A stretch of DNA of 64,000 nt, from assembly GCF_010548465.1 (NCBI RefSeq), contig NZ_JAAGMD010000725.1, positions 1 through 64,000 on the forward strand, read 5' to 3'. The translations under genes and the position numbers were made by a program. The DNA comes from Streptomyces sp. SID14436. GTDB taxonomy: Bacteria > Actinomycetota > Actinomycetes > Streptomycetales > Streptomycetaceae. Shown in pieces: positions 7,829-35,600 of this stretch. How positions within the stretch are numbered: position 1 is the stretch's first letter; each line of letters opens with the position of its first letter. The notes under the pieces are model-generated. The model made no database searches, had not been told where the DNA came from, and saw only the letters and a program-made list of their open reading frames with translations.

Positions 7829-10084
7829 TTACAGGCCGAGTTCGGCCAGGGCTGCTTGCCTGTGCGGACTGAGGCTGAAGCGGCGGCGGCGCAGGTTGCT
7901 CAGCCACTGGCCCAGGCGCACGGGGTCGCCGTCGATCTCCTCGATGTGGCGCTGGGGGACGTTGAGATGGCCTTCCCTCGCGCGGAATGCCCGTGCGGCG
8001 GCCAGCCCGCGCTGGAAGGCACGCTCGCGCGCCGGCAGGTGGCTCTCTCCCGCCGGGAAGGCGGACGTGCCGGGCAGGTCGACGAGTCCCAGCTCCTTCA
8101 GCAGGCACTTCTGTTCAGGGTGAAGGCGGTCGGAGCGGGCGCGCTGGGCCTCGAGCCACTTCTCTGCCTGGGAGGCCGTCCCGTTGTGTTCCAGGCTCTG
8201 GCGGGCGGCGTGGTAGGTCCGCTGCCAGGTGATCGGCCAGGGCGGGTTCCACCACCGGTCCAGGGCAGTGAGGGCAGCGGCGCGCTGCTCGGTGAGGGTC
8301 TCGGCCCGGGTGCGCTGAGTGGCCAGCCAGCGGCCCAGGGGGAAGCCGTCATGGACTTCCTCGACGGGTGCGGCAAGGTGGCCGTGGCGGGCAGCATAGG
8401 CGGCGGCGTGAGCGAGTGCCCGTTCGAAGGCCTGCTGGCGGGGGTCCCAGATGATGCCGAGGCGCTCGAGGGCGTGGACGCGCACGGTGTCGAGGGTGCC
8501 CTTGGTGTGTAGGTGGCGCTGCCAGGTGAGCCAGCGGCCCAGGGGGTAGCCGGTGGGGTCCTCGTAGGCCTGGGGGACGTCGAGGTGGTGGTGGGAGTGG
8601 CGGAAGCGGCGGGCTGCGGCGAGGCCGCGGCGCCATTCGGCGCTCTTGGGGGCAAGGACACGCAGGGAGAGGGCGAGGGCGACTTCTTCGGCCTGGGTGG
8701 GACGGTCGAAGCGCAGCCAGGCTTCGGGATCCTCGCCGGGCATGGTGGGGCGGTGGGTGCGGGGGTCCGACAGGCGGGCGTCGAGGCGGTCGTCGTGGGC
8801 GCGCAGGGCCTGGATGGTGCGCCACAGCGGGGTGTAGGCGTCGGCGCCGAGGAGGTCGTCGGGGTCTTCGTCGGGGGTGAGGTAGACGGGGACGACGAGG
8901 GTGGCTTTCTTGCCGGCGCCGGGCCTTTGGCGCAGGGCGCGGCCGACGGCCTGGACCGTGTCGACGGGGCTGTTCTTGGGGTCGGCGAAAACGACTGCGT
9001 CGATGGCGGGCACATCGATGCCCTCCCCCAGCACGCGGGCGTTCGACAGGACGGCCGGCGTGTCGGGGGTGGTGTGAGAGGCGAACTCGAGCAGGAGGCG
9101 GCGGCGGACCTGAGGGGCGTGGCTGCCGCTGATCCAGTCCGCCCACAGCCCCTCGGGCCGCAGCTCGGCGGGAAGCGTGGCGGCGGTGTCCGCCAGGGTG
9201 GTGGCGAAGGCCCGGGCGTCGGCGACACGGTGGTGGAAGGTGAGGATGCGGCGCAGCCGGTGGTCGTGGATGGCGCGCAGGGCAGCGACCTGGCGGCCGG
9301 CCAGGCGCAGTCCGTCGACGCCGGCGCCGGGGCCGGTGGCGAGCCAGTCGCGCAGGTCTTGGTCGGTGACGACGGGGACGAGGATCTGGTAGTCGGCGAG
9401 CAGGCCGAGGTCGATGGCGTCGGAGAGGTTGAGGTGGTAGGCGACGGGGCCGAACAGGTTCTCGTCGTCCATCGAGGCCACCGCTTCCGTCCCGTCGGTG
9501 TCCGAGGCGTCGTCGGGGTCCCAGATACGGGGAGTTGCCGACAGGTAGAGACGACGGGCGGCGGGGACCTGGTCGTCGTGGTGGACAGCGGCCCAGGCCT
9601 TGCCGAGACGGCCGGCGGTGCGGTGGGCCTCGTCGACGACCACCAGGTCCCAGGCGGGAAGGCGGTGGTCGCGGTGGGCGGCGATGACGGCGGACAGGGA
9701 GGCGTAGGTGGCGTAGGCGGTGACCGGGCCGGAGCGGGGTGGGGTGGCGAGGGCGGTCAGCTCGCCGGAGTCGGTGGTCAGGGGGACGTCAGCGCCGAGC
9801 GGCTCATGGTCGAGGGCCTGGCGTGCCGAGCACACCGCGATGGTCGTGCCTTTGCGTCCGGCGGTGCGCCAGGAGCGGATCGTCTGCGACAGCAGGTCCA
9901 GCGTCGGCAGGAGTACCAGGACGCGGCCGCGGGGGGCGATGCGGGCGGTGGTGCGGGCGGCGATCAAGGTCTTGCCGGTGCCACAGGCGGCGATCACACT
10001 CGCGCGGGAGCGCTGACCGAGCGTGCGGGTGGCCGCAGCGACGGCGTCCTTTTGGTGGGGCCGCAGCTCGATGTCGGAAGCCAT
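7829..10084 (-). CDS. SF2 DEAH-box helicase with C-terminal helicase-associated repeats
   Basis: A 751-residue SF2 helicase. It shows a Q-motif-like RPHQ at the N terminus, Walker A ACGTGKT (33-39), DEAH (151-154), SAT (182-184) and motif VI QAVGRALR in the second RecA-like domain. From about residue 470 onward several helicase-associated domain units follow, marked by recurrent patterns such as GHLxxP...DGxPLGRWLxxQR. This domain plan is common in Streptomyces and is thought to act on DNA; the biological role of the family is largely unknown. It is transcribed in the same direction as the upstream sbcDC pair but is separated from it by a strong terminator-like hairpin. A truncated second copy of its 5' end lies at 24411-24500 behind jetD. 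Confidence 0.85.
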   Translation of the reverse strand: MASDIELRPHQKDAVAAATRTLGQRSRASVIAACGTGKTLIAARTTARIAPRGRVLVLLPTLDLLSQTIRSWRTAGRKGTTIAVCSARQALDHEPLGADVPLTTDSGELTALATPPRSGPVTAYATYASLSAVIAAHRDHRLPAWDLVVVDEAHRTAGRLGKAWAAVHHDDQVPAARRLYLSATPRIWDPDDASDTDGTEAVASMDDENLFGPVAYHLNLSDAIDLGLLADYQILVPVVTDQDLRDWLATGPGAGVDGLRLAGRQVAALRAIHDHRLRRILTFHHRVADARAFATTLADTAATLPAELRPEGLWADWISGSHAPQVRRRLLLEFASHTTPDTPAVLSNARVLGEGIDVPAIDAVVFADPKNSPVDTVQAVGRALRQRPGAGKKATLVVPVYLTPDEDPDDLLGADAYTPLWRTIQALRAHDDRLDARLSDPRTHRPTMPGEDPEAWLRFDRPTQAEEVALALSLRVLAPKSAEWRRGLAAARRFRHSHHHLDVPQAYEDPTGYPLGRWLTWQRHLHTKGTLDTVRVHALERLGIIWDPRQQAFERALAHAAAYAARHGHLAAPVEEVHDGFPLGRWLATQRTRAETLTEQRAAALTALDRWWNPPWPITWQRTYHAARQSLEHNGTASQAEKWLEAQRARSDRLHPEQKCLLKELGLVDLPGTSAFPAGESHLPARERAFQRGLAAARAFRAREGHLNVPQRHIEEIDGDPVRLGQWLSNLRRRRFSLSPHRQAALAELGL

Positions 10085-18502: not shown

Positions 18503-19099
18503 GTGAGGGCGTGGTTTGAGCGCATGGCGTCGATTCCCGGGATGACGTTCGGCGGGAGTCCCGGCGTCGTGCGTGGCAGGCTGCCCGAAGCGGGGGTGCG
18601 CCCGGATGAGTCGTTCGGCAGTGCGATGTGGCCCATTCCTGAGGGACACACGTCTGCCACGCCGGCTAGTCGGCACGTAGCGCACGACGTACACGGCCAG
18701 GAGCTGATCGCTCGAGTATGGGAAGCCCTTGAGCTTCCGGGTTCGGCGATGGACTACCACTTCGTCTTGCAGAACGCAGTCGAGAGGCTGTGCAGCACAC
18801 GCCGTGCGCACCCTGCGGCACTGGAACTGCTCGAAGTGTTCGCCCTCTTGAATCTCGAGCTGATGGAGGCTGCGCCCGAGGCCGTGTCGTTCGAGGACAT
18901 GGAGGCGGGAAAGTTTGTGCGGGTGACGTCCGTGCCCCGGCTGCTCGGCCTGCTGGAGCGCGAGGGCGCATTCGTCGAGGCGCTCGCGGTGGCGAGGCGA
19001 CTGGTCCGCTTCGGTCAGGGCGAAGACGCAGTGGCCCGGCTGTCGGAGAAGACCGGTGCACTGGCGGCCGAGGCTGCGATAGCGGACGGGGCACGGTGA
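18503..19099 (+). CDS. unknown protein, first gene of the nuclease-helicase/TerD operon
   Basis: A mostly helical protein of 198 residues with no recognised family. It starts at GTG 18503; ATG 18524 is an alternative start. The C-terminal half (from about residue 75) has a regular helical pattern rich in Leu, Glu and Ala. Its stop codon overlaps the GTG of the next gene (GTGA at 19096-19099), which implies translational coupling with the nuclease-helicase and a shared role, perhaps as an adaptor or sensor. Confidence 0.7.
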   Translation: MRAWFERMASIPGMTFGGSPGVVRGRLPEAGVRPDESFGSAMWPIPEGHTSATPASRHVAHDVHGQELIARVWEALELPGSAMDYHFVLQNAVERLCSTRRAHPAALELLEVFALLNLELMEAAPEAVSFEDMEAGKFVRVTSVPRLLGLLEREGAFVEALAVARRLVRFGQGEDAVARLSEKTGALAAEAAIADGAR

Positions 19100-21174
19100 G
19101 CGTCGGGCTGGAGCGGCTCGTGCCTGCCGCTTCCTACCTGGAGGAGGCATTCTTGCGGTGGGTTCTCACCCCTGCCGCGGATGCGGCCATCGTGCAGCGG
19201 GTGCACAGCCAGTACCCGGTCACCGTGCAGGAGCGCACCTACCGGCTGGACTACCTGATCGTGGGCCAGACGCTGCAGCTGGCCGTCGAGCTGGACGGCT
19301 TCGCGTTCCACAGCGACCGGGCGGCATTCACCTACGACCGGCTGCGGCAGAACGACCTGGCCGCCACTGGCCTGACGGTGCTGCGGTTCTCCTACGATGC
19401 GGTGCGCACGGACACGGCGCGCTGCGTGGCCCAGCTGCAGGCGATGCTGCGGCGCGATCCGGTGCTCGCTGCGCTGGTGACAGCTGTGCCGCTTGTCGAG
19501 GTTCCGGACATGGCCGGGGACCCGATGCGGGCCGCCGGCCCGCCCCGCGGTACGGGGCCCGTCGGGCCGGCACCGGAGAGCGCCTACTTCGACGAGGTGC
19601 GGGACCGGGTCGACCGGGGGCCACTGCGGTCCTGCCAGGATGAGGCGCTGGCCGCGCTGGCGAACTACTACGCCGGTGGCGGCCGGCATGCGGCCACAGT
19701 GATGGCGGTCGGGGCTGGCAAGACAGCCCTCGGCGTCGTGGCGGCGCTGTCGTTCACCAGGCGGCGGGCGCTGGTGGTGACTCCGGGGTCGGTGATCCGC
19801 GGCACCTTCGCGTCGGCACTTGATGCGGGGGCGCCGGGCAATGTGCTGTACGGGCTGGCGGGCGGGCCGATGCTGCCCGGCGCCCGCCCGCCAGCAACGC
19901 TGGTGCTGGATGCGGACGAGGAGCAGATCAGCCGGGTCAGCCGCGAGCGGCTGCTGGCCGCGGACATCGTGGTCACGAACTTCCACGCACTGGGCACTGG
20001 GGACAAGAGGGGGGACCTGCTGGCGAAGCTGGAACCGGAGGACGTCGACTTCATCGTGGTCGACGAGGCGCACATCGCGGCCAGCGATTCCTACCAGCGG
20101 CTGTTCGCACATTTCCCGCAGGCGCGCACGCTGTTGATGTCGGCATGCTTCACACGACTGGACGGCAGACCGATCGACGCAGACGTCGTCTATCGCTACC
20201 GGCTGGTGGACTCCGTCGCGGACGGCTCGGCAAAGAACCTGCGGGTGCACCGGTTCGCGCCCGAGACGGCGTCGACGGTGTATGAGGCGGTGTGGCCTGA
20301 CGGGCGGCGCGAGCAGGTCGTGGGCCGTGATGCCCTGCTGCGTGTGCTGGGGGACGAGCGGAAGCTGGCGCGGATCACCGCGCAGTCCGAGGCGCCGATC
20401 CGGCAGGTGATGGCGGTGACGCGGGCGTGTCTGGATACGCAGGCCAAACTGCTGGCCCCGGTCAGGCCGCGGGTGCTGTTCGCGGCGATGGGCCAGGCCC
20501 ACGCCGAGCAGATCGCGCGGATCGCTGAGGAGCACGGCATCGCCTGCGCCACGCTGCACCACAGCATGCCGGCATCGGCGATCGCCGCGACACGACGCCG
20601 GTTCGAGTCGGAGGCGGGGGATCTTGAGGGCATCGTGCAATTGCGGATGCTCGGCCAAGGCTACGACTTCCCTCCCATCACCGTCGTCGTGCCGTTGCGG
20701 CCGTACGGCAGCTTCGGCGAGTTCTACCAGTTCGTCGGCCGCGGCGTCCGCGTCCTGCGCCACCCTCATCTCGCCCCTGACCAGCAGTACCTGGACATGG
20801 TCTGCCATACAGAGCTCGGCCTGGAGGAGCCTTTGGAGGCTCTGTGTGCGGACAACGACATGGACCCCGCGGTCCTGCTCGAGGCTCCGCTGATCGACGC
20901 CGGCATGCTGGAGAGCGTTCTCGACGGCCGTGACGGTGCCCCGGAGGGGACCGGCCCGGCGGGTGAGGGCGGGATGGACGCGTTCGTGCTGTACGAGCGG
21001 GGCCGGGTCGAGGAGCGTGTGATCCACGGCGTGGACCGGGTGGAGGCACGGCGGGCGGAGCGGGAGCGGCAGCTGCTGGCCCAGCGCTACGCCGTCTACG
21101 CACAGAGCACCCCCTCCCCGGTCCCGTTCGAGCAGTTCGTCGACTACATGCGGAGGCTGACCGGTGGCACGTGA
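19096..21174 (+). CDS. DUF559/Vsr-like nuclease fused to an SF2 helicase
   Basis: A 692-residue fusion. Residues about 1-130 look like a DUF559 (Vsr-like, PD-(D/E)XK-fold) endonuclease: RLDYLIV, VELDGFAFHSDR and LRFSYDAV mark the Asp, Glu and following strands. From about residue 175 comes an SF2 helicase: QDEALAAL, Walker A MAVGAGKT (about 201-208), DEAH (about 322-325), MSACFTR in place of SAT, and a motif VI-like FVGRGVR. GTG 19096 is chosen because it overlaps the upstream stop; an upstream in-frame extension would lie inside the first gene. It probably opens and cuts DNA. It overlaps the next gene by 11 bases. Confidence 0.85.
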   Translation: MSVGLERLVPAASYLEEAFLRWVLTPAADAAIVQRVHSQYPVTVQERTYRLDYLIVGQTLQLAVELDGFAFHSDRAAFTYDRLRQNDLAATGLTVLRFSYDAVRTDTARCVAQLQAMLRRDPVLAALVTAVPLVEVPDMAGDPMRAAGPPRGTGPVGPAPESAYFDEVRDRVDRGPLRSCQDEALAALANYYAGGGRHAATVMAVGAGKTALGVVAALSFTRRRALVVTPGSVIRGTFASALDAGAPGNVLYGLAGGPMLPGARPPATLVLDADEEQISRVSRERLLAADIVVTNFHALGTGDKRGDLLAKLEPEDVDFIVVDEAHIAASDSYQRLFAHFPQARTLLMSACFTRLDGRPIDADVVYRYRLVDSVADGSAKNLRVHRFAPETASTVYEAVWPDGRREQVVGRDALLRVLGDERKLARITAQSEAPIRQVMAVTRACLDTQAKLLAPVRPRVLFAAMGQAHAEQIARIAEEHGIACATLHHSMPASAIAATRRRFESEAGDLEGIVQLRMLGQGYDFPPITVVVPLRPYGSFGEFYQFVGRGVRVLRHPHLAPDQQYLDMVCHTELGLEEPLEALCADNDMDPAVLLEAPLIDAGMLESVLDGRDGAPEGTGPAGEGGMDAFVLYERGRVEERVIHGVDRVEARRAERERQLLAQRYAVYAQSTPSPVPFEQFVDYMRRLTGGT

Positions 21175-23884
21175 CTCGTCGTACTGGTGGCATCCGGCCA
21201 CCCAGGCCGACCCCGGAGAAGCCCTCCGTCTGGAGGCGGCGGCCGGACAGCATCAACGGTTCGCTGAGCTCGACGCACTGGCGGCCAGACTGCTTGGCGC
21301 TGCCCTGGCCGGACAGCCGGTGGCCACCATCACCCCCGGCCGAGGACGCCACACCCCTGACACCGCCGAGGTGACGGCCCTCACCCAAGCAGAAGCAGTC
21401 CTGTGTGCCAGCTTCTTCAGCGTCCAGGAGCAGCAGAAGCGCGGCGCGTGGTACCTGCCGACGAAGCTGTCCGTGAAGGCGGGGGCGGTCAACCTGCCGT
21501 ATCTGCTGCGTGAGCACCCCGGCCATGCTCTGACACTGGCCGCCGAGGAGACCGCCCGGCTCACCGCCGTGAAGGGCGCGGACACCATCCTGCTGTGGGC
21601 GCTGCTGGTGCCGTTGTTCGAGACACTGCTTCAGCCCGTCCGGCTACGAGCGGCGGGAGACATCTTCCCGCCCACGCATCAGCAGCGGTTCTGGACGGTG
21701 ATCGAAGAGCGCTACCGGCTCCTGGGCATCAAGGACGGTGCACTGGAGGCTTTCCGCTTCGGCGGCGGCTGGCACACGCTGGACCGTGCGGGACAGCAGC
21801 AGGCCCGGCTGGAGCTGCTGGATATCCTCGCCGCTGCCGACCTCGCGGAGCTTGTCGCTCGTCACCGCATCCAGCGGCTCCAGGCCTTGATGGCCGGCTT
21901 CGCCAAGAAGGCCAAGGCCGGCACGGCCCTGGCGCGCCGGGTGCTCACCAAAGAACTGCAGCCGGTCGTCTCCGCGTACTTCGGGGGCGACTGGCTGGCC
22001 GCTTTGGACTATCTCCAGGTTCCCGCCCACCCGGATGAGGAGATCATCACTGCTCTTCCCGGGCCCCGTCTGTATGTGGGCACGTCCGCCCAGGCAGCCG
22101 GCGTGGCTGCCGAGGCGGGCATCGCGGAAACCGAGGTGCAGGCCATGCTGGCCGCCTTCCTCGGCGGGGGCAGTTCGGTGTCCCCGGTGGAGGAGCGGAC
22201 TGCTGCACTGCGTAGCTGGTGGTCGGGTTTCGACCAGGCGCATGCGGTCCAGTCGCCGGGGATGACGTCCTTGTGGGGCCTGATCGACGAGGAACTGATG
22301 AGCCTGTCGCGGACCGAGCAGGGTTTCACCCCTCAGCTGTACCAGCAGTGTCTGCCCGCCGACGTCCTCGAGGAGGTCGGACGGCTGTGGGCGACAGTGA
22401 CGCTGCAGCGGTATCCCGGCCGTATCGTCAGCAATCCGCGGCCGCACCAGATCATGGCCGATACGCTGGGCCCGGCGGGCGAGTTCTGGCACGGCGTGGG
22501 CCTGACCGCCTGGTTCGTGTGCGAAGGACCGTACTCCCGCACCACCCTGGGCCGCGCCGACCGCTACTACAGCAAGTCTCTGGCAGCCCTGCGCGCGGCG
22601 GGCTGCCCCGTCGACACGTCCTTCTTCCGCGAGCTGGATGCTGCGGAACAGATGCTGGGTCCGGAGGAGGACATCACCGACAGCACAGGCAGCGCGGTCG
22701 AGACTCCGTACGGTCAGGTGATCTTCACCTCCGGCATGGGCCGCCGCACGCGCCGCAAGGGCTTCGAAGGGGTGCGGGACCTCATCACCCGGTACCGGCG
22801 TGCCTGGGCCGAACAGCACCTCGAGACCTACCTGCAGCACCGGTGGCGCTCCGAGCTGGAGAACGTCGCGCACCAGCTCCACCGGCACGTCGCTGCCAAG
22901 GGGAAGCCGCCCACACTCATCCAGTTCTCCCGGTTCGCCACGGAAGCCGCCAACCGCTGGACCGGCGGCGACCTGGGGGCGCTGTACACGGCCATCGGCG
23001 AGCCGGCACCGTCCGAGCAGGAGCGGCCTGCTCGTCTGGTGGCAGGTGACGGCTATGACGTGGCCCGGTGGGTGTATCAGGCGCTGGGGGGTAAGCCTGT
23101 CGACCACAACACGTGGTTGAACAGGCCGGAGGAGACCCAGCGGCAGTGGCAGCTTGGCCGCCTGGCCACCGAAAGCCTGCGCTACCTGCAACTGCAGGAA
23201 GCCCTCGGACAGCCCCCGACGGCCAAGCAGTTCGGGACCCAGCGTCTACCCTGGCCCTGGCCCGGCGGGGAAGCAGAAGGCTGGCCTCATCTCCAGCAGG
23301 CTCTCGCTGCGCTCACCGGCATCAGCCCTCCACCGGGCCGGAGCCCCTCCCCCGCTGTCAGCTCGACCGCGATGGTCCGCCCTCGGGACGGCGGACAGCA
23401 GATGCTGGCCAAGGGAGCCAATGCGCCCCTGGCAACCGAAGAGGCCACCATCCGCATCACTGCCTCCGGCGTGCCCGTGGACGTGTCCGCGGTACTCCTC
23501 ACCAGCAGCGGCAGAGTTCGCAGTGATGACGACCTGGTCTTCTACAACCACCCCTTCCAGGATGGGGTCCGCGTCAACGGCGGCGCCGCCACTGCCGAGC
23601 TGAGCATCATCCCGGAGAGCGTCGGCAGCATCGCCATCGTCGATTCCGAGGGCCCGCCCGGCGCAGTCTTCGGCCAGGACACCGTGTGGGAAGCACAAAT
23701 CACCCAGCCTTCCGGCACCCGGCTGTCCTTCGTGCCGCCCGCGTTCACCGGGCGGGAGACGGTGGCCGTCGCGGTGGAGCTCTACCGCCGTACGGGCGGT
23801 TGGAGGGCCCGCGCGGTCGGACAGGGTTACGACAGCGGGCTGGCGGGTCTGGCCACCGACTACGGGATCAACGTGGAGGCCTGA
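21164..23884 (+). CDS. large protein with a C-terminal TerD domain
   Basis: A 906-residue protein. The first about 750 residues are not recognised; they are soluble and largely helical, with Trp-rich segments around 350-550. Residues about 760-906 are a TerD (tellurium-resistance/stress) domain: VPVDVSAVLL, VRSDDDLVFYNHP with the Asp cluster typical of calcium-binding TerD proteins, and the closing WRARAVGQGYDSGLAGLA. TerD proteins are usually about 190 residues and stand alone, so this is an unusual fusion. It starts with GTG inside the end of the nuclease-helicase gene. The three-gene operon may be an uncharacterised defence module in which this protein controls or recruits the nuclease-helicase. 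Confidence 0.8.
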   Translation: MARDSSYWWHPATQADPGEALRLEAAAGQHQRFAELDALAARLLGAALAGQPVATITPGRGRHTPDTAEVTALTQAEAVLCASFFSVQEQQKRGAWYLPTKLSVKAGAVNLPYLLREHPGHALTLAAEETARLTAVKGADTILLWALLVPLFETLLQPVRLRAAGDIFPPTHQQRFWTVIEERYRLLGIKDGALEAFRFGGGWHTLDRAGQQQARLELLDILAAADLAELVARHRIQRLQALMAGFAKKAKAGTALARRVLTKELQPVVSAYFGGDWLAALDYLQVPAHPDEEIITALPGPRLYVGTSAQAAGVAAEAGIAETEVQAMLAAFLGGGSSVSPVEERTAALRSWWSGFDQAHAVQSPGMTSLWGLIDEELMSLSRTEQGFTPQLYQQCLPADVLEEVGRLWATVTLQRYPGRIVSNPRPHQIMADTLGPAGEFWHGVGLTAWFVCEGPYSRTTLGRADRYYSKSLAALRAAGCPVDTSFFRELDAAEQMLGPEEDITDSTGSAVETPYGQVIFTSGMGRRTRRKGFEGVRDLITRYRRAWAEQHLETYLQHRWRSELENVAHQLHRHVAAKGKPPTLIQFSRFATEAANRWTGGDLGALYTAIGEPAPSEQERPARLVAGDGYDVARWVYQALGGKPVDHNTWLNRPEETQRQWQLGRLATESLRYLQLQEALGQPPTAKQFGTQRLPWPWPGGEAEGWPHLQQALAALTGISPPPGRSPSPAVSSTAMVRPRDGGQQMLAKGANAPLATEEATIRITASGVPVDVSAVLLTSSGRVRSDDDLVFYNHPFQDGVRVNGGAATAELSIIPESVGSIAIVDSEGPPGAVFGQDTVWEAQITQPSGTRLSFVPPAFTGRETVAVAVELYRRTGGWRARAVGQGYDSGLAGLATDYGINVEA

Positions 23885-24667: not shown

Positions 24668-25753
24668 TTACAGGTCGTCGCGCCATGAGCGGTCCTGCTG
24701 GAGGAGTGTTGTTCCTGTGGCTTCTTGGGCGAGCCGGTTCCCGGTGGTGAGGATGTTGGCCGCTGGGTGGCGGAGGGGTTCGGGCAGCCAGGAGACGCGC
24801 CGTTGGGCGGCAAGGGGGTCGACTCGTTTCGGGGCCGGTCCTTGGATATTTTGCTTGAGAAGGAGCTGGTAGAGGCCGAGGGCGGGTCGGATGGGCGGGA
24901 GTCCTGATGCTGTGCCTGATGCGTTGGCTCGCTGGGGGATGGTGAGGCCGTCATCGTCGAGATCACCGTAGTAGGCGATGTCCGTCACGCCTTTGAGGTT
25001 CGCGATGCGGGTGACGGAAGCCTCGAAGGCGTGGCCGCCGCCGAAGGCCACGTAGCCGACGCGGGCGGGGTCTTGGGCGAGCAGGGTGCTGACGGTTGCG
25101 AAGGTGTCGCTGTTCTCGATCACCAGGACGGTGCCGCCGTCCCCGAGGTGTTCATAGGCCAGGGGTGGTGGGATCCGCTCGGTGAACAGGGTGGCCAGGG
25201 TGAGGCGTCCGGGTGCGAACAGCGTGCTGGTGGTGAGTGCGTCAAGACGCTTTTCGTCGCCGAAGATTTCCAGGGAGCGTTCACGCATGGGGATCACGGC
25301 CCTCCGGTGGGTGTCCCCGTCGGTGTCGCGCAGCCAGCGGTTGATCGTCTTGAGGGTCTCGGTCTGGGCGGTGGTCAGTTTGAGGGTGCTTGCCCAGGAG
25401 AGCTCCCGGCGCCACATGAGGGGTGCCGTGCGTGTTGGTCTGGGTTCTGTGGCCTTGGGTGGAGCGGGGAGACGGAGCCAGCGTGGCAGTGGTGGCTGTG
25501 TGTTGTCCCATCCGTCATGTGTGCGCGGCAGTTCGATCAGGTGGTGGTCGGCGAGTTCGTCGAGCAGGGCAGACAGGACGGGGCGGCTTTGGGTGGTGCC
25601 GGCTGTCTCGGGGCAGGCCTGGGTGAAGGCGTCGAGGATCGTGGCCTGTTCGACGCGGTGTTCCGTCCTCGAGGTCAGGGTGGTTGCCAGGCAGGCTGCT
25701 GAGGGGGTCAGCGGTTGCTGTTCGGGCTTCGTGTCGTCTCGGTTGGTGGTCAC
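24668..25753 (-). CDS. jetD: Wadjet nuclease subunit JetD
   Basis: A 361-residue protein. GTG 25751-25753 overlaps the jetC stop (GTGA). The N-terminal half has the RERSLEIFGDEKRLD segment seen before the Toprim domain of JetD proteins. The Toprim-type residues are visible: Glu in LVIENSDTF (about 213) and the acidic cluster YYGDLDDDGL (about 262). JetD is the topoisomerase VI-A-like nuclease that cleaves circular plasmid DNA once the JetABC SMC motor has extruded it. It is the last gene of jetABCD, in the canonical order. Which Wadjet subtype it belongs to cannot be settled by eye. Confidence 0.85.
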   Translation of the reverse strand: MTTNRDDTKPEQQPLTPSAACLATTLTSRTEHRVEQATILDAFTQACPETAGTTQSRPVLSALLDELADHHLIELPRTHDGWDNTQPPLPRWLRLPAPPKATEPRPTRTAPLMWRRELSWASTLKLTTAQTETLKTINRWLRDTDGDTHRRAVIPMRERSLEIFGDEKRLDALTTSTLFAPGRLTLATLFTERIPPPLAYEHLGDGGTVLVIENSDTFATVSTLLAQDPARVGYVAFGGGHAFEASVTRIANLKGVTDIAYYGDLDDDGLTIPQRANASGTASGLPPIRPALGLYQLLLKQNIQGPAPKRVDPLAAQRRVSWLPEPLRHPAANILTTGNRLAQEATGTTLLQQDRSWRDDL

Positions 25754-28700
25754 TGGTCGGTGGCCATCTGGTCGTGGTGGTTTTCCTGCCATGCGTCGCT
25801 GTTTTCGAGCGGGGCATGGGAGGCGCGTGGTTTCACCAGCAGTCGTGCGGCGTGGACTTGGCCGGTGGCGCCGTCTTCGTCCGGCGTTGTTTCGTGTGCG
25901 ATGTGGTCGGTGACGTGCAGATGGCGTGTCCCGGTGCGTTGGTCGGTGTCGTTGCGCAGCCGGATACACAGGGGGAACGTGGCCAGCACGCGGTCTTCCA
26001 TGTTCCCGGTGGTGTAGATCAGTTGGACGCCGAGTGCGGAGGCCATGTTCATTTGCAGGCTCAGCAGGTAGTCGGCGTTCGCTTTGCCGATTGGGTTGTC
26101 CAGGACCAGCATTCCGCCCAGGCGGTTGGTGGCGCGGGCTCCGGTCCGTGTGCTGGCGCGGAGTGCGGCAAGGGTGCAGTACAGCATGATCGCGCCGGTG
26201 AGTTCCTGGCCGCCGGAGAACACTTTGCTCATGTCGCTGATGGATGCGTATTCGGCGCGGCCGGCGGCGTCGGGCTTGAGGATCTCCACCTTGAAGTCGC
26301 GTGGGACCGCGGCGCCGACGCACCGCAGTACCAGGTCGCGGCCGGGCAGGTGGGGCTGGGTGCGGGCGTTCTCGTCGAGGGTCTCGGCGATCCGTACGGC
26401 AAGGATCTGCGGTTCCGGCGTGCTGAAGCCGATCTTCAGGATTCTCTGTTTGGCCCATGCCCCGGCGCCTTCAGGCAGGCGGGAGAGCCGCTCGGCCTTT
26501 TCGAGCAGGGCCAGGGCCTGGTTGGTGTGGTGTTTGAGCTGGTCGATCAGCAGGTTGCGGTGGCGTTCGGAGTCTTCCAGGTCGGTGGTCAAGCTTGCGG
26601 CCCGGCCTGTGAGTTGAATCGTCCACTGGCCGGCGCGCTCGATCAGCGACGTGGTGTCGATCTCCGTGAGTTGTTGGTAGATCGGCGCCTTGAGATTGGC
26701 GAATCGGTTCTGGTTGGCCGCTTCGCGGAACTGCGCGACGGCTTCGTTGACGGCCTGGTCTGCTTCGTGCAGTTGCTCGGTTGTGGTGCTGTGGGTCTGT
26801 ATTGCCTCGTCGGCGGTCTGCTGTGCTTCGTCGGCGGTTCCGGTGAACGGGGCGGCGCTGGGTGGTAGTTCCAGCCTGCGGGTGGCGGTGGTGAGGCTGC
26901 GGTGGACGACGGTCATCTCGCGTGCCGCGGCTTCGCTGGTGCGGAGTTTGCGTTCGGTGGCCCGTTGCGTCTCCGCGGCTGTCTTGAGCAGGGCTTCTGC
27001 GTCCTGCAGCGCGGAGGCTGCCCGTTCGGTGAGCTGCGCTCCTTCGGCAGGGTTTGAGGGGGTCCAGTCGGCATCGAGACTGCTCCAGGGCTTCCCGCTG
27101 GGCTGACCGGCGCGTGTTGCGTCTGCTTCCAGTTGGCCGCTGTGCTTGCTCAGATTGCGGTACTGAACCTCCAGGCTGCGCACGGTGCGGCCAAGCCGCC
27201 GTTTCGTGGCCTCGATGGTTTCGGCGCTGCCGGCTTCTGCGGATGCTGCCAGTGCTTTGGCCCGGGTCACGATCTCGGCCGGTTCACTGCGTAGTTCGGC
27301 ATCCCGGTCGGTTGTTTCCTTCTGTGCCTCCTCTACGCGCTGGCGTAGGTCCTCGCCGACTTCCACGGCACGGAAGCCCTCCGCCGCTTGGTGGTAGGCG
27401 ATCTCCAGTGCGGCCACATCGTGTTGCCCGGGATTGAGGGTGAGGGGCTGGTCTCCGTAGACGACCTTGTCCAGCCGGGCGGCGTAGGCGGCGGCGTCAC
27501 GGCGGAGCGACTCGGCTTGCACCGCGTATTCGGTGGCCTGGTCGCGCAGTCGGTCGGCTGCCTCGCTCAGTTCCTGGGCTGCGGTGTGATGTGCTGCGGC
27601 CTCGGTTTGAAGTGTCTCGATCTCCGCGCGGTTTGTGTCGGCGTCGGCGGCCTCTTGGGCGAGCAGTTGGAAGGAGTCGGCGGTGCGGGCGGTCTCCAGG
27701 GCGGCTTGTTCGGCGTCCTGGACGGTGGTGGTGTGCGCGGCCAGGATGTTGGCGGCTTGCAGGCAGGCGTCGCGGGCGGAGTCAAGGGCGGCCTTGGCGT
27801 CGGTGGCCGCGGCTGATTGGGTGTTCGCGAAGGAGCGTAGTTGCTCGATGTGTCCCGCCGGGTGGTCGCGCAACCAGTGGGTGAGCTGTACTTCCAACTG
27901 GAAGGCTGCTGCCTGGCGTTCGGCACATTCGTTCAGGGCTCGGCGGCGTTCTTCGATCCGTGCTGCGGCCTGTTCGCGCAGCTGGCCGGCGGCCTGGGAG
28001 TCGTGTAGGGCGGGGGTCGGCTCCACGACGAATCCGTTGCTCGGCTGGGGCGGTTCTGCTTCCAGTGGTTCGCGCGTGGAGACGAGCACGGCCGCGGCCG
28101 GCAGTTGCGGCATCTGTGTGAGCAGGGTCCGCGCCCGCTGCAGGGTTTCCTGGTCGGGCACCACGATGCCGTCGACCAGTGCAGGGTGGGCTTGGATGGA
28201 TGCGGCGTGCAGGCGGGGGTTTACCAGCTGTTCCAGAGCCCTCCAGCCCGCGGTCGCAGTTATCCGGTGCTCGGCCAGCAGCTCGAGCAGGTCCTCGACG
28301 GCCTGGCGCGGCGGCATGAGGGCCTCGTCCTCAACGGTGAGGGCTTCGATCAACCGCTGGTCCGCCCGGTCGTCGGCTCGCAGCGCGTCCAGCTGCTGGC
28401 CGGCCGATGCTTGCGCCGCGGCGGCCAGGTTGCGCAGCCAGGACGCGTTGTCTTCCAGCCACTGCGCGGGGTCGCCGCCGGGTACGTCCTCGTCATTGTC
28501 GAGTTCGGCGAGTTCACGCAACAGCTTCTGGGCGGCAAGTTCTGCCGCGGCACGCTGGGTGTCCTCGACCGCCCGTATCGCGGTCTCCCTCGCCTGCCGG
28601 GCCTTGACCTCGGGCTCGATCAGCTGATTCGCGACCTCGTCGAGCCGGCGGGTTTCTTGCTCGAGCCTCCGGTACTCCTCGCGTTCACGCGTCGCCTGGA

Positions 28701-30246
28701 TCTTGCTGTCGGTAGCCCGGGCACGCAGGCGGGCGTCGGCCTCGGCCACGGATTCGTCTTCGGCGATCAGACCAGCCTGCCGGGCCTGAGCAAGACGAGA
28801 GTCCACGCGCTCTACGTGCTGGCCGAGGAGTTCGGCTCGGACGGTGCGTGCGGTGGCCTGCTCCTCCCCCTCGGCCGCGCCGCGTTGCGCGTCGGCTGCC
28901 TCTGTCTTGCTGTGGGCGCTCTTGCGATCCAGGCGGTCGGCCTTCTCCGCGCACTGCTGCCTGCTGTGGTGCAGGGCCCCGGCGAACCGGGCACCGGCCT
29001 GGTCGCGGCGGAGCCGGGCAGCTCCCGCGGCCAGTTCGGCATCGTCCAGCAGCTCGCTGGCGACTCGATACTTCTCGTGTGCGGTGGCGGCTTTCAACAC
29101 CGTGGGGACGACGGCCCAGGCGGCCAGTTCGCTGCGTTCCTTGGCCAGTTGTCCTTCTGCCTGGACGGCCTGGGAGTGGGCCGCGTCGCGACGCAACACC
29201 AGGGCCTGACGTCGCACCTCTTTGTGGAGCAGGTCGGCCTTGTCGCGGGTCTGCTGCTGTTGTGCGGCGTTCTCCTTCGCCATAGCGGAGTCTTCACGCA
29301 GTGCGCGCAGTGCCTCGTCCGCCTGCTCGACGGATGTGCCCACCTGCGCCGCGAGTTGTGCCAGCGCCTTCGCGGCTAGGTGGGCCTGTTCGGCTGCCGT
29401 CCTCTGCTCGATACGCCGGCGGGCCAGGTGTTCGGCGGCTGTGGCCGTGGCGGTGGAGAAGTCGCGGTCCAGCAGGAGTTGCTCGCGTCGACCGATGTTT
29501 TTGGCATAGGCGCCGAAGGCGTCACCCAGTTCGGTGAAGTCCTCAGCGTCCACCGCCTTGCTCAGCAGCCACTGCGTGAACTGTCGCCCGGTGGTCGTCT
29601 TGAACGCCTCGGCCGCGTCTCCCTCATCGACGTTCATCGCCTGCTGGACTGCGAACAGGTCCGGTTCCAAGCCGAGCCGCCGCAGGTGTTTCTCCCACTC
29701 CCCCTGCCGTTTCTCGATCTCCAGGCGGAGTGTTTTGTCACCGGAGTCCAGCCGTCTGAGCGCGTCCTGGTAGGCGTTCATCCGCAACCGGCGCCCGCTC
29801 TCGGCGAAGGGCAGCGTGGCCAGGGTCGTCTCGGCGTTGGGGCTGAGCGAATAGAACGTCCGCTCCACGGTGCCGTCCGTGGCCGGGGTCAGTACCTGTC
29901 CGGTCACCAGCGTTTCACCGGTGCGGGCATGAACCCATTCCAGGACCACGTGGGAAGGGGCTGCCGCGGACACCACGTACGCGCGCAGTGCCTCACGGCC
30001 TTTACGGGACTGCCGCTCGGGTAGCACCGTGGACAACAGCATCCGGATCAGCACGGACTTCCCACCGCCGTTCTCCAGCACGAGCAGTGTCGCCGGTGCG
30101 GGGCGCCGGAACAGCTGGCCGGCCGCTGGGATGAGAGTGCTGACGGGGATCGGTGAGCCGCCCTCGGACAGGTCCAGCAGGACGTCGCCGTAACGGGCCC
30201 CGGTCGGGCCGATGTTGTACAGGCGGATGCGGTTCAGCTCGTACAT
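25750..30246 (-). CDS. jetC: Wadjet SMC-like ATPase JetC
   Basis: A 1498-residue SMC protein. Walker A is LENGGGKS (about 57-64); the middle about 1000 residues are coiled coil; the C-terminal head has the ABC signature FSGGQELTGA (about 1347) and a Walker B-like MLVLDNPIGKA in which Asp is followed by Asn. The loop-extruding motor of Wadjet, it works with kleisin JetA and KITE protein JetB. It starts 7 bases after jetB and overlaps jetD. The protein seems long for a JetC; the coiled-coil arms are the extended part. Confidence 0.88.
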   Translation of the reverse strand: MYELNRIRLYNIGPTGARYGDVLLDLSEGGSPIPVSTLIPAAGQLFRRPAPATLLVLENGGGKSVLIRMLLSTVLPERQSRKGREALRAYVVSAAAPSHVVLEWVHARTGETLVTGQVLTPATDGTVERTFYSLSPNAETTLATLPFAESGRRLRMNAYQDALRRLDSGDKTLRLEIEKRQGEWEKHLRRLGLEPDLFAVQQAMNVDEGDAAEAFKTTTGRQFTQWLLSKAVDAEDFTELGDAFGAYAKNIGRREQLLLDRDFSTATATAAEHLARRRIEQRTAAEQAHLAAKALAQLAAQVGTSVEQADEALRALREDSAMAKENAAQQQQTRDKADLLHKEVRRQALVLRRDAAHSQAVQAEGQLAKERSELAAWAVVPTVLKAATAHEKYRVASELLDDAELAAGAARLRRDQAGARFAGALHHSRQQCAEKADRLDRKSAHSKTEAADAQRGAAEGEEQATARTVRAELLGQHVERVDSRLAQARQAGLIAEDESVAEADARLRARATDSKIQATREREEYRRLEQETRRLDEVANQLIEPEVKARQARETAIRAVEDTQRAAAELAAQKLLRELAELDNDEDVPGGDPAQWLEDNASWLRNLAAAAQASAGQQLDALRADDRADQRLIEALTVEDEALMPPRQAVEDLLELLAEHRITATAGWRALEQLVNPRLHAASIQAHPALVDGIVVPDQETLQRARTLLTQMPQLPAAAVLVSTREPLEAEPPQPSNGFVVEPTPALHDSQAAGQLREQAAARIEERRRALNECAERQAAAFQLEVQLTHWLRDHPAGHIEQLRSFANTQSAAATDAKAALDSARDACLQAANILAAHTTTVQDAEQAALETARTADSFQLLAQEAADADTNRAEIETLQTEAAAHHTAAQELSEAADRLRDQATEYAVQAESLRRDAAAYAARLDKVVYGDQPLTLNPGQHDVAALEIAYHQAAEGFRAVEVGEDLRQRVEEAQKETTDRDAELRSEPAEIVTRAKALAASAEAGSAETIEATKRRLGRTVRSLEVQYRNLSKHSGQLEADATRAGQPSGKPWSSLDADWTPSNPAEGAQLTERAASALQDAEALLKTAAETQRATERKLRTSEAAAREMTVVHRSLTTATRRLELPPSAAPFTGTADEAQQTADEAIQTHSTTTEQLHEADQAVNEAVAQFREAANQNRFANLKAPIYQQLTEIDTTSLIERAGQWTIQLTGRAASLTTDLEDSERHRNLLIDQLKHHTNQALALLEKAERLSRLPEGAGAWAKQRILKIGFSTPEPQILAVRIAETLDENARTQPHLPGRDLVLRCVGAAVPRDFKVEILKPDAAGRAEYASISDMSKVFSGGQELTGAIMLYCTLAALRASTRTGARATNRLGGMLVLDNPIGKANADYLLSLQMNMASALGVQLIYTTGNMEDRVLATFPLCIRLRNDTDQRTGTRHLHVTDHIAHETTPDEDGATGQVHAARLLVKPRASHAPLENSDAWQENHHDQMATDQ

Positions 30247-30253
30247 GGCCGGA

Positions 30254-31060
30254 TCAGTCTCCTGGCTCGGCTGCGGTCAGGGGCGTTGCGGGGGCGGCGT
30301 CGGGCTGTGGGCTGCTGAAGGCGGGTCGGCCGTCTGGTCCCACGGTGATCCCGAGCTCGGCCAGCTGGCCGAGCATCTGCTGTCCGGCCAGCTCCCGTAC
30401 CTGGATCTGGTAGCGGGCTGTGGTGGTGTAGGTTCCGCCGTTCTCCTTGCCCGCGCGCCGCAGCATTCCGTTGTCGGCGAGGTATTCGGCGACCCGCTTG
30501 ATGAGGGCGTGCCTGCTTTTGGAGTGGGCGCGGTCATCCCCGGTGGAGGAGACAGGATTGCGTCGCTGGTAGTAGCGCCACAGTTGGATCAGGTCCGGAT
30601 GGTCGGCGGGAACTCCGTCGTCGGTGTCGGCTTCAGCGGCTTGGCGTTCCAGTTCCTTGGTGGCCTGCTCGACCATCACGTCGACGTGGCGGACGGTGAT
30701 GCGGCCGACGTGGGCTGGGTCGTCCAGGTCTTCGGGGCGGTAGTAGGCGAGCGCGGCGATGGCCAAGTGGGCCAGTGCCGCGATCGGACGGTCGGCGGGT
30801 TTGCTGATGTGGTCGGTGACGCTGACCGCGAACTGGGTTTCGGCGGTCGCCCCGAGCACCAGTCCGGCCCGTGAGTCGACGGCGATCACTGTCAGGTCGA
30901 AGCCGCTTGCGGCGGCGTGCAGGAGTTGGGCAAACTCCTGGTCGGTGCGGCAGCGACCTACCAGCGCGGCGTACTCGGCGTTGCGGCGGGGTGTCAGTCC
31001 GGGTTGGAAGCCGAAGGCGAGCAGCCGGTTGACGGCGGCCGTGTCGTTGACGTTGTTCAC
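30254..31060 (-). CDS. jetB: Wadjet KITE-like subunit JetB
   Basis: A 268-residue protein that starts inside the jetA stop (ATGA-type overlap at 31057-31060) and ends 7 bases before jetC. Winged-helix-like segments are visible (LIKRVAEYLADNGMLRRAG), as expected for a KITE-type subunit that binds the kleisin JetA. The last about 25 residues are a Pro/Ala-rich tail. The assignment depends mainly on position between jetA and jetC and on size. Confidence 0.75.
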   Translation of the reverse strand: MNNVNDTAAVNRLLAFGFQPGLTPRRNAEYAALVGRCRTDQEFAQLLHAAASGFDLTVIAVDSRAGLVLGATAETQFAVSVTDHISKPADRPIAALAHLAIAALAYYRPEDLDDPAHVGRITVRHVDVMVEQATKELERQAAEADTDDGVPADHPDLIQLWRYYQRRNPVSSTGDDRAHSKSRHALIKRVAEYLADNGMLRRAGKENGGTYTTTARYQIQVRELAGQQMLGQLAELGITVGPDGRPAFSSPQPDAAPATPLTAAEPGD

Positions 31061-32547
31061 GCCGCGCCCTCCTCGAGGCCGTTGTCGGTCGGCAGGGCAG
31101 AGGCTGCCGGGCTGTGGACGACCAGGAGGTCGTGACCGGCGAACCGGTCGTCATCCAGTTCGCGGTCGTCGGCCAGGGCTGCCAGCGCTGTGCCGCGCTC
31201 GGGGTCGTGGCGCGGGGCACCGAACAGGCCCAGTACGTGCAGGGCCAGCAGATGGTCGAGGTTGTCTCGTCCGGCCGATATGCCGTGCCGGCGTGCTGCG
31301 TTCAAAAGCTCGGACAGGCGGATGCCGTCGGTGTCGGTGCGTTTCAGCAGTGAGGCGACGGCCGTGTACTGCTCGTCGGAGAAGGTGGCGGTGTCTTCTG
31401 CGTCGCCGAATTCGGGTTCGATGATCAGACTGTCGTCGCCGTCGGGTTCGGCCGGCGGCGTCATCAGTCCGGTGATCAGGTCCGGGAGGTAGATGATCGC
31501 CGGGCGGTGCGGCGGGGTCGCCGCCGTCGCGAACGTGCCGAGCAGCGGAAGCGCCTGCCGTACCGGCAGTTGCAGGGCCGGTTCGAGCAGCTGGCGTTCG
31601 AGGTCGACGTGGGTCCGGCTGGGGGGCGGCACGAAACTCTGGCGCTCTTGTTCGGCGCGGAACCGTTCGCCTACTTCCTGGAGGTTCGCCTGCAGGGATG
31701 CGTGTCTGCGCAGGCACTCCTCGAGGATTGCGATCAGCTCGGCGGCCTGGGCCGGGGTGGTGTCTTCGGTGCTGTTTTCCATCATCCGGACCAGGTTGTC
31801 CTTGATGGTGTTTTCGGCGTTGATGCGGTCCTCGATGTGTTCCAGCGCTTCGGTCTGCATGCGCTGCACGTCACGGACCCAGTCCACCGAGCGGATGTCC
31901 CGGCGCATGCCTTCCAGCCGGGTGCGGATGTGCTCGGTGTATTGCACGGTGCGGCGCAGCGCCATCTCCGCGGCGCGGTGGGCGTCAGTCAGCCGTCCTC
32001 GTCGCACCAAGGCTTCGAGCTTGGCGTCGGCGGCGACCTGTTCGGAGGCGATGTCGAGGTCCACCGCGCCGACGAGCACCGCGATCGCTTCGTTGGAGGC
32101 GCGCAGGCGTGGCCGTCCGTCGGGTCCTGGAACTTCGCGCAGCAGCTTGAAGGAGAAGGTCTGCGCGGTGTAGGTGCTGTGGGAGACGATGCCGTAGAGG
32201 TGGCTGAAGTCGCGGTCGACGGTGCCGACGTTCAGCAGGCTGTCGAGGACCCAGCGGGCTACGGCGGTATGTTCGTCGCGGTCGCGCTGCGGCATCTGAA
32301 GCCCTGCGACGCGTGCCACGGCGGCCACGATGTCCTCGTGTCGTGCACCGTCGTCGAAGTCCATCTTCAGTGTGACGGTGTCGATGGCGGTGAGCGCCAG
32401 TTCCTCCATTTGGTAGCCGGTCCACTCGCGTGAGGCGAGCAGGGGCTTGCGGCGTTCCAGGTCTAGGACGGGGTCGGCGACCGCGAGTGCCTTCACACGA
32501 GTTGCCAGTCCCAGCGTGTCGCGGCCGTGAAGTCCCGCTTCAGACAT
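31057..32547 (-). CDS. jetA: Wadjet kleisin-like subunit JetA
   Basis: A 496-residue, mostly helical protein, the first gene of jetABCD. It has an N-terminal winged-helix-like region, a charged helical middle (residues about 160-300, possible coiled coil) and a C-terminal DNA- or SMC-binding-like region (SLLKRTDTDGIRLSELLNAA). A strong GGGAGG site precedes the ATG at 32545-32547. JetA is the kleisin that links the JetC heads. The gene begins 122 bases after the sbcC copy 2 stop on the same strand, so read-through from sbcDC is possible. Confidence 0.78.
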   Translation of the reverse strand: MSEAGLHGRDTLGLATRVKALAVADPVLDLERRKPLLASREWTGYQMEELALTAIDTVTLKMDFDDGARHEDIVAAVARVAGLQMPQRDRDEHTAVARWVLDSLLNVGTVDRDFSHLYGIVSHSTYTAQTFSFKLLREVPGPDGRPRLRASNEAIAVLVGAVDLDIASEQVAADAKLEALVRRGRLTDAHRAAEMALRRTVQYTEHIRTRLEGMRRDIRSVDWVRDVQRMQTEALEHIEDRINAENTIKDNLVRMMENSTEDTTPAQAAELIAILEECLRRHASLQANLQEVGERFRAEQERQSFVPPPSRTHVDLERQLLEPALQLPVRQALPLLGTFATAATPPHRPAIIYLPDLITGLMTPPAEPDGDDSLIIEPEFGDAEDTATFSDEQYTAVASLLKRTDTDGIRLSELLNAARRHGISAGRDNLDHLLALHVLGLFGAPRHDPERGTALAALADDRELDDDRFAGHDLLVVHSPAASALPTDNGLEEGAA

Positions 32548-32669: not shown

Positions 32670-35600
32670 CTACTGCGCCAGTGTCTGCAGGCCGCTGGCC
32701 AGGTCGGCTTGCACGAGGTCGTCGCGTTCGTCCGGGGTCAGCCAGCGTGTTCTGGACCCGGTGGCGCCCCGCTCCACCCACAGCACCTCATCGACGGCCT
32801 CGGCAACGGCGTGCAGATGGCTGATCACCATGACGAGGCGGTCGCCGCCGGCTCGCGCGCGCAGTACCTCCAGGGCCGCATCCAGTGCAGCCGCATCGAG
32901 TGCTGCGAAACCTTCGTCGAGGAACAGGGAGCCCAGGCTCGAGCCGCTACGGGAATGCAGTTCGGCCAGTGCCAGCGCCAGAGCGAGTGAGGCCTGGAAC
33001 TTCTCCCCGCCGGACAGCCGGTTCGGGGGGTGGATGACCCCGGAGGTGCGGCTGACGATGTCGAAGCTGTCGGCGAAGCCGAATCGGCCGTCGGTCATCT
33101 GGCCGAGCAGTTCGCTGGCGACGTCGCGCAGCGCGCGGGTGCGCAGCATCGTGAGGTGGCCCAGGAACTTGGCGTCGACCAGTTCACGGCGCAGCACGTC
33201 CAGCGCCTCGGACCGGGCGCGGCCGGCGGTGATGGCGAAGTCCAGGTCGGCGGCCGGCTTGATCATGTCCTGTGCGCTCTGTTGCTTCTGACGCTGTTCC
33301 TTGGCCTCCAGGTCCGCCTGTGCTGTGGCCATGACGAGGGGGTGCAGGGCGTCTGCTGCCGTCAAATCGGCGGCGGGGTCGAACCCGTCAACGTCGGCGA
33401 GCTTGGCCGTCTGGCCCCGCAGACTCTCCGTCGCGGCCGCTGCTCGCTGGGCGGACGCGTCGGCGCGCTCGGCAAGCCGGCCGCCCAACGCCGCTGTGGC
33501 TGTGGCCAGTTCGGCGGCGAACCGGCGGGTGGCGCAGATCCCGGGCGCGGCGGGGGCCTGGGGTACGGGGCACACGTCGGCTGCGTCGAGGTGCGTGACC
33601 GCGTCGGTGACGGCTTGTGCCCAGGCATCCAGGTTGCCGCGCAGCTCATTCAGCGGGCGGTCCACACGGGTGCGGTCCTCCTCGTCGAGGGCGTGCTGCC
33701 GGCTGAGCACGGCAGACTTCTTCTGCCGTGCTGTTTCCCGCTGGTCGGACAGGCTTTGGAGTGCGGCCTGCCGGGCGGTCACGGCGGCGAGTGCGGTCGA
33801 CGCTGCGTCGTCGGTCACCTCGATCGCATCGCTGGGCAGCGTGGCCCGGATCCGCGGGGGCAGCGCGGTCAGGGCGCGGCTGATCTTGCCGATGGCGCGG
33901 GTGTGTGCCGTGAGGGCGGTCTGCTGGTCGTCGACGGCGCGTTGGTAGGAGTTCTTGCGTTCTGTGAGCGTCGCACGGTCCGTGTCGATCAGGGCGGTGC
34001 GGCGGTGCACGTCGGTCTGCAGGTGCTCGGCATGATCTTCGGCTGCCTGTTCGCATGCGGTGATCGCTTCAGTGATCGGTGCGGCGTCCCGCTCGAGGAG
34101 CTCCTCGCGGTGGTCGGCTCCGTCGTCGGGGGTGGTCTGGGCGGCGGTGATGGCGATCAGCGTCGCCGATGCCGTCTCGCTGTCGAAGTCGTGACCTGCG
34201 GTGGCCGTGGTCGTGAGATCGCTGAAGGCGCGCTCCGCCTTGGCCGTGGCTTCGCGCGCGGCCTGCTGTGCCGTGCGATGGTCCGTGTCTCGGTCGCGGA
34301 TGGCTGTTTCGGCCGCTGTCACGGCGGCGCGGGCCTGGGCGAGCTGGTCGGCGGCGGCCCTCTGTGTCCTGGTCGCCTGGGTGAGTTGGGTTCTTGCCTC
34401 GGCCAGCTCGGCGGAATCGGTCCCGGATGCCGGTTCGAAGCCGTCCGGGAGTTGTTGGCGGCAGACGGGGCAGTCGTCGCCGTCGTGCAGTTCAGCGGCG
34501 ATCGCGGCGGCCTGGTCGCGTTGTTGCAGCGTGTCCACGCGCCTCTGGGCGGCAGCGAGGTCCTTTTCTGCTGCGACGTGTGCCTCTTGCTTTTCAGCGC
34601 AGGTGTCTTGAGCGGCTTGGTGCCGACTCGCCGCGGTGGTCTGGCCGCGGACGGCGCCGGCGAGGCGGCTGGCTGCTGCGAGGGCCGCGGTCAGTTGGGT
34701 GCGGGCATGGGCGGCCTTCTGGCGCACGCGCTTGGCCGTTTGGGCGGCGGCACGCGCCTGCTGCGCCAACGGGTCTATCCGGGCGGTGCGTTCGGCGAGT
34801 TCAGCTTCGGCGCGGGTGATGGCCTCGCCTTCGCCTGCGAGTTGTTCGCTCTGCCGGGCGAGCCGGTCGCGTTCGCCTCGGAGCTCTGCGGCGTCCGCTG
34901 CGAGGGTTTCGAGAACCACTGCGGCTTTACTGAGGGCGTCTTGGCCTTCGCCTTCCGCGTCCGCTGCGGCGATCGCGTCCGTCAGGCTGCTTTCCTGTTC
35001 TGCGGCACTTGTGGCCTCAAAGTTCAGGGCCTCGCGTCGTGCGGCGATGTCGGCGGCGACCGGTTCGAGGGCCTCGAGGGTGGGGCCCGCGTCGGCCACG
35101 GTGCGCGTGGAGAGCGTGTGCGCGGCGGCGGTGGCCCCCTCAGCGGCAGCCTGGGCCGTGGCTACTTCCTTCTGCAGTTGGGTGATGCGGCCGATGGCCT
35201 CCTTCAGGCGTTCGGCGCGGGCTTCAGCCTGCTCGGCGGCCGCGCCGGCTTCCTCGGCGGTCTGCTCGGGGGCGTCCGGCATGGACGCACGCTTGGCCTC
35301 GGCGCCCGCCAGAAGGCCCTTGAGCGTCTCACGCTGGCGGGCCGCCACCCGCTGGATGGACTCCAGCGACTCGGCACCGAACAGTTCCCGCAGCAGCTTG
35401 CCGCGTTCTTTGGGGGCCGCGATGAGGAGCTGGTCGAACTTGCCCTGCGGAAGCAGCCCCACGCGCAGGAACGTCTCGTAGCTCATCTGCAGCACCGCTT
35501 TGAGGCGGGCGTCGACGGCGCCAGCGTTGTCTGTCTCCTCGCCGGTGTCGAGGTTCTTCAGATGGTGCCGGCCGGCGTTCGCGTTGGTGGCATGCATGGT

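Follow-up and report, generated by a model that had tools for sequence, protein, structure and literature searches.

A recurrent, undescribed candidate defence operon of Streptomyces built on two protein families without named relatives and a nuclease-helicase

The 64,000-nucleotide stretch of DNA analysed here (positions 1 to 64,000 of NZ_JAAGMD010000725.1; hereafter the window) lies on contig C602 of the draft genome of Streptomyces sp. SID14436 (6.84 Mb, 908 contigs) and carries at 18503–23884 three codirectional forward-strand genes that we call A, B, and C. Gene A (18503..19099, GTG start) encodes a helical, TPR-like protein of 198 amino acids (aa) that belongs to no named family, gene B (19096..21174) a fusion of 692 aa between a DUF559/Vsr-like nuclease and a superfamily 2 (SF2) helicase, and gene C (21164..23884) a protein of 906 aa in which a large core without named relative is followed by a C-terminal TerD domain. 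A first-pass annotation made from the letters alone had read the three as an operon with overlaps of 4 bases (A/B) and 11 bases (B/C), both of which were borne out. The start of gene A is homologous to the one used in all Streptomyces relatives, and although a longer open reading frame (ORF) of B opens at 18790, the actual start is placed at the GTG at 19096 because this start and the 4-base overlap with A are kept in relatives. All three frames are maintained in tens of relatives with ratios of nonsynonymous to synonymous substitution rates (dN/dS) of ~0.13–0.15 for B, 0.27–0.28 for C, and 0.22–0.46 for A, a sign of purifying selection, so the arrangement is not due to chance and the existence of the three-gene operon as described is confirmed.

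About 2,000 genomes were sampled overall in this analysis. A scan of genome contigs gave 21 loci beyond those of the first Streptomyces sample; the close relatives of the host genome are all Streptomyces. Of the loci, 29 were fetched, two of which proved to be the same contig as another, and in the 27 distinct loci with usable flanks the association that the first-pass annotation had seen in a single genome recurs: A stands directly upstream of C in every one of the 27, and 25 of them have B in between. Gene order and overlaps are kept in Streptomyces, in another genus of the Streptomycetaceae (L100), in another actinomycete family (L101), and in a metagenome-assembled genome (MAG) of the Polyangiaceae (L068), whose A, B, and C proteins have identities of 41%, 60%, and 34%, respectively. 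When A and C were each used singly to search the phylum, in separate samples, both searches arrived at one and the same second genome (G1111); a weak A-like match in another genome (G1028) spans just 58 residues and has no C adjacent to it. Within Streptomyces, the three proteins have correlated pairwise distances (0.72–0.86). Full-length C, i.e., core plus TerD, was present in 5 of the 199 sampled Streptomyces genomes, host genome included, and in ~3% of an order-wide sample; the operon as a whole occurs in ~2.5–3% of Streptomyces genomes and is rare elsewhere. Truncated remnants of C that stand without A and B (L043 in G040, L044 in G139, and L079 in G349) suggest gain and loss of the operon, the loss in these cases apparently being recent. 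A and C form its invariant core, and B and the TerD domain are optional.

That the middle gene encodes a nuclease-helicase, as first annotated, holds in Pfam, where residues 43–118 match MTES_1575/DUF559, 176–353 ResIII/DEAD, and 459–553 Helicase_C. The first of these is a Vsr/DUF559-like PD-(D/E)XK nuclease domain (19222..19449, + strand; PF18741 E = 7.9e-9, PF04480 E = 4.2e-7), and the other two make up the SF2 helicase core (residues 176–553, 19621..20754, + strand; PF04851 E = 1.5e-12, PF00271 E = 1.4e-6, phrog_16 helicase E = 3.9e-25). The nuclease residues E16, D52, E65, D67, and H72, the Walker A residues G208, K209, and T210, the DEAH box (D323–H326), and motif VI (QxxGRGxR, Q545–R552) are all invariant in 17 homologues with identities down to 60%; such intact nuclease and helicase motifs are what is expected of nuclease-helicase defence operons. 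Solved relatives found by sequence (a putative helicase, a type I R subunit, and RadD) match the helicase part only and with low scores, and the helicase core weakly resembles repair helicases of the RadD/XPB type. A search of 297 class-wide genomes (E ≤ 1e-60) detected no further B-like fusion.

Gene A has zero matches in Pfam, PADLOC, NCBIfam, and PHROGs. Its AlphaFold2 (AF2) model is all-helical with TPR-like hairpins (predicted local distance difference test score 82.9), and a distant homologue matches TPR_14 at E = 0.021. The best Foldseek matches of the model are TPR proteins at a non-significant E of 0.14.

The core of C (residues 1–717, 21164..23314, + strand) is conserved in all of the fetched loci, with 81 invariant positions among 21 sequences, and neither Pfam nor the PDB yields a sequence match to it. 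Pfam identifies nothing in C besides TerD, Foldseek finds no match outside the TerD part, and the AF2 model is of moderate quality only (predicted template modelling score, pTM, 0.52). Profile–profile comparison within C revealed three + strand repeat copies: residues 263–291 (21950..22036), which match residues 589–617 at P = 3.5e-5, residues 680–707 (23201..23284), which match the 576–620 copy at P = 9.1e-6, and this middle copy itself (residues 576–617, 22889..23014), which matches both others; the next best window that is not a repeat reaches P = 0.0078. As there is no direct match between the two outer copies, we read the segment 576–620 as one module, of which the second half recurs in one copy and the first half in the other. 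The middle copy weakly resembles the homing-endonuclease associated repeat PF18780, to which several C homologues give sub-threshold matches (E 0.002–0.08); a scan of 11 nearby genomes gave no library match to PF18780 and thus no calibration of this resemblance. DNA binding by the repeats is hinted at by these matches, no more. A relationship of the core to TerB_N was rejected (a TerB_N protein, L112, aligned to the C profile with an hhalign probability of 0.2%), as was a viral origin of the operon, with no homologue of C in IMG/VR or the GenBank phages and B matching only generic helicases there.

The C-terminal TerD domain noted in the first-pass annotation of the 906-aa protein is real (residues 766–900, 23459..23863, + strand; PF02342 E = 2.4e-15, 56.9 bits vs a cut-off of 25.3), and the corresponding part of the C model has Foldseek matches to the solved TerD structures 2kxt and 3ibz. 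Two things that the annotation had attached to it need correction. The domain is without the long acidic loop that canonical TerD has (the GDNLTGEGEGDDE region), which makes calcium binding doubtful and not to be assumed. Moreover, TerD is stably kept in every Streptomyces C examined in full but absent from C of the five distant relatives (L068, L069, L100, L101, and L102), which marks it as a late, lineage-specific add-on outside the core and removes the emphasis that had been laid on it. The nearest relatives of this domain are TerD domains found in ordinary Streptomyces proteins of the TerD-vWA and TerD-TerD types, and it looks like a module acquired within the Streptomyces lineage. The host genome has 16 TerD-domain matches in total, including TerD fusions of very different lengths. 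The C proteins of L068, L069, and L100 finish with a linker followed by a short tail of basic-amphipathic character (L100 ...RRRGLLDRLLGRN; L069 ...RRRGFLGRLFSRG; L068 ...RRSWMQRLMDRMR), and L101 and L102 have none. These RRRG(L/F)xxRL(L/F) tails have hydrophobic moments of 0.32–0.44, and a role as membrane tails was kept as a weak suggestion only, given their strongly negative mean hydrophobicity.

The first-pass annotation knew of no named system with this composition, and the profile searches agree: no model in PADLOC v2.0.0 (2023), Pfam, NCBIfam, or PHROGs names the set of A, B, and C, nor does the open-access text searched, and apart from generic helicase matches none of the three proteins receives a name from PADLOC, NCBIfam, or PHROGs. 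With regard to type I or III restriction-modification (R-M), methyltransferase and specificity domains are absent from A and C in the same four libraries, and no methyltransferase conserved beside the operon was found across the loci. Among the PADLOC matches for A, B, and C at E ≤ 1 there is no Shango-named model, and v2.0.0 presumably includes Shango models. By outline, Shango is the closest named system, as it consists of three genes (a TerB-like protein, an ATPase, and a DEAD/DEAH helicase), of which one carries a tellurite-resistance-type domain and one encodes a helicase, in a defence-island setting (PMC10250203). However, its Ter-type domain is TerB and forms its core, whereas the operon has TerD instead, and the DUF559 nuclease present in B is not described for Shango.

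Other resemblances are more partial. Ter-linked neighbourhoods with McrBC-like R-M have been proposed to act against phages (Anantharaman et al. 2012, as cited in PMC3710099), and the TerD-dependent ones, as far as that citation presents them, likewise link TerD to nuclease/NTPase machinery; the operon differs from them in having neither McrBC nor a stand-alone TerD gene, its TerD being a fused and dispensable tail. Nuclease-helicases of the MTES_1575 type also pair a Vsr-like nuclease with a helicase in the absence of a modification enzyme, probably with direct recognition of invading DNA (PMC3710099), but these are giant superfamily 1 helicase-HEPN-transglutaminase proteins, and B is a compact SF2 protein with an N-terminal nuclease and the partners A and C. 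ARMADA, Druantia, and DISARM rely on YprA helicases combined with Vsr or phospholipase D (PLD) nucleases, Vsr in the case of ARMADA and Druantia, and share with the operon an SF2 helicase with a Vsr-type nuclease in defence islands (PMC12458937). In contrast to these, B has no DUF1998/MZB domain in Pfam, carries its nuclease at the N-terminus, and is not a YprA helicase, and the operon lacks DrmB-, PglX-, and BrxHII-like genes. Wadjet and Lamassu have enrichment at Streptomyces chromosome ends and island location in common with the operon, which differs in having no SMC ATPase, kleisin, or JetD/LmuA.

In the window, the operon adjoins a type III Wadjet system on the reverse strand, with JetA3 at 31057–32547 (635 bits), a 268-aa gene in the place of JetB that matches no model (30254–31060), JetC3 at 25750–30246 (2047 bits), and JetD3 (396 bits) in an ORF at 24668–26458 whose match begins at ORF residue 254 and places the true start downstream. 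Beyond it, 32670–37619 (−) encodes a 1649-aa protein with an SMC/SbcC-type ATPase (LmuB/mad3-like) in its C-terminal two thirds and ~590 uncharacterised N-terminal residues. On the other side, a domain scan located a 1132-aa fusion of a caspase-like domain, an AAA ATPase, and a GT4-conflict glycosyltransferase (3901–7299, −), which is a probable conflict-system effector, and a TniB-type transposition ATPase (813–1781, +), which points to a transposon boundary on the left side of the island. The window also has a helicase with Helicase-associated (HA) repeats (7829–10084, −); similar helicases occur near the operon in the subtelomeric loci L046, L052, L066, and L067.

Elsewhere, the operon adjoins Wadjet II (L069; JetC2 1611 bits), a GajA/GajB (Gabija) pair ~3 kb downstream (L057:15878-19941, +), an LmuA-like protein (L056), or a Mokosh-like caspase fusion and a cytosine methyltransferase (L040), and a DUF262 protein is also among its neighbours. 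Large STAND/NACHT proteins stand beside about ten loci, i.e., about a third. One of them, a 1800-aa NACHT/STAND-type ATPase (L039:12629-18028, +), is followed by a 391-aa partner of an unknown family (L039:18028-19200, +) with relatives beside ~7 loci; neither has a PADLOC match, and the two are possibly another undescribed system. STAND, helicase, and transposon-type genes are the common neighbours, and as the flanks are otherwise not conserved, A-B-C is marked out as a unit.

The operon lies within ~1.2% of a chromosome end in five of seven complete chromosomes and 12–14% inside the chromosome in G193 and G264, and in G129 and G151 it is present at both ends, in the terminal repeats. The enrichment at chromosome ends (p = 2e-7) is to be read as a trend only, as the cut-off was picked post hoc and the seven genomes are not independent. 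Wadjet and Lamassu have likewise been found enriched at Streptomyces chromosome ends (PMC10482375). The operon is also carried by mobilizable linear plasmids, among them linear megaplasmids. Location in defence islands, patchy distribution, and mobile replicons are features that it shares with nuclease-helicase defence operons.

Taken together, a defence role of the operon is well supported by this context, and on balance it is probable that A-B-C is a self-contained, mobile, modification-independent DNA defence operon in which A and C would recognise invading DNA and B would translocate along it and cut. In the mechanism that we envisage, A as a small helical adaptor and C as a large protein with possibly DNA-binding helical repeats would bind each other to form a recognition core; this core would recognise invading DNA or its structure and recruit or license B, which would move along the DNA by means of its SF2 motor and cut with its DUF559/Vsr-like nuclease. 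Self DNA would be spared although there is no modification gene, as has been proposed for other Vsr-nuclease/helicase proteins with direct recognition of invading DNA (PMC3710099), and the TerD tail probably serves localisation or oligomerisation, not catalysis. What is observed are the conserved gene order and co-occurrence, the selection on all three genes, the intact motifs of B, the defence-island setting, and the optional status of both TerD and B; that the proteins form a complex, that C recognises DNA, that the DNA is cleaved, and that phages or plasmids are thereby blocked is what we infer.

Several observations weigh against this interpretation. B is missing from two distant loci that have A and C (L069, from Blastococcus, and L102), so the system either has no strict need of a nuclease-helicase or uses a different effector in its place; neither a fold nor a catalytic motif was found for the core of C at a pTM of 0.52; the idea of DNA binding by C is based on sub-threshold repeat matches; and guilt by association is imperfect at Streptomyces chromosome ends, which gather accessory genes of many kinds. 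The first-pass annotation had named a match of all three proteins to a known system, or a lack of co-occurrence in other genomes, as grounds for refutation, and neither was found. Its proposal of an undescribed defence system stands in part: co-occurrence, the lack of a named match, and the defence context support it, but its emphasis on TerD does not hold, and B is not universal either. B fills the effector position in most loci, no effector is visible in L069, and in L102 C is followed directly, on its own strand, by genes for an SbcD-like phosphoesterase and an SbcC-like ATPase (L102:2883-6786, −), which may stand in for B. With TerD, the basic-amphipathic tail, or nothing at the end of C, this leaves room for a more tentative and less probable proposal, namely that A and C form a new modular core for recognising invading DNA for which effector and localiser are both exchangeable and that C founds a new DNA-sensing family.

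The same SbcCD-like pair would also suit a DNA-repair or replication-end-processing module in which the nuclease-helicase processes DNA ends, as would the terminal location on linear chromosomes and plasmids and the weak RadD/XPB likeness of B. We nevertheless consider this quite improbable: only a few per cent of Streptomyces carry the operon, it lies internally in G193 and G264 and is present in the Polyangiaceae MAG and in Blastococcus, and its neighbours are defence systems. A telomere function as the main role was rejected on the grounds of this patchy presence and of the internal or non-Streptomyces locations. That the operon acts against plasmids or conjugation rather than phages, on DNA topology or structure like Wadjet and Lamassu, is unlikely, since it rides on mobilizable linear plasmids itself and does not encode a loop extruder of the SMC type, even if it prefers chromosome ends as those systems do, has Wadjet as a direct neighbour in the window and in L069, and has a C core that is carried by no phage genome searched. 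A place in a tellurite or metal stress (Ter) pathway with TerD as its functional heart, for which the genuine domain at the end of C and its stable retention in the Streptomyces lineage could be cited, is very improbable given the absence of TerD from C in five of five distant homologues and the missing acidic loop. TerB, TerC, and TerY genes were not seen beside the operon in the inspected loci, no Ter gene is among the scanned window neighbours or in the plasmid annotation, and at least 15 TerD matches besides this one occur in the host genome.

We therefore regard A-B-C as a real, recurrent, undescribed candidate defence operon, with defence argued from context, a putative mechanism, and TerD as a decoration outside the core. 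As one unit of 5.4 kb, it adds a well-delimited candidate system to the main antibiotic-producing genus, and brings in two protein families that no library searched describes, namely A and the core of C. If this reading is true, a Ter-family domain, long suspected in phage resistance, would be a plug-in on a DNA-targeting machine, and the operon would be one more system in the puzzle of defences that are located at the ends of linear chromosomes.

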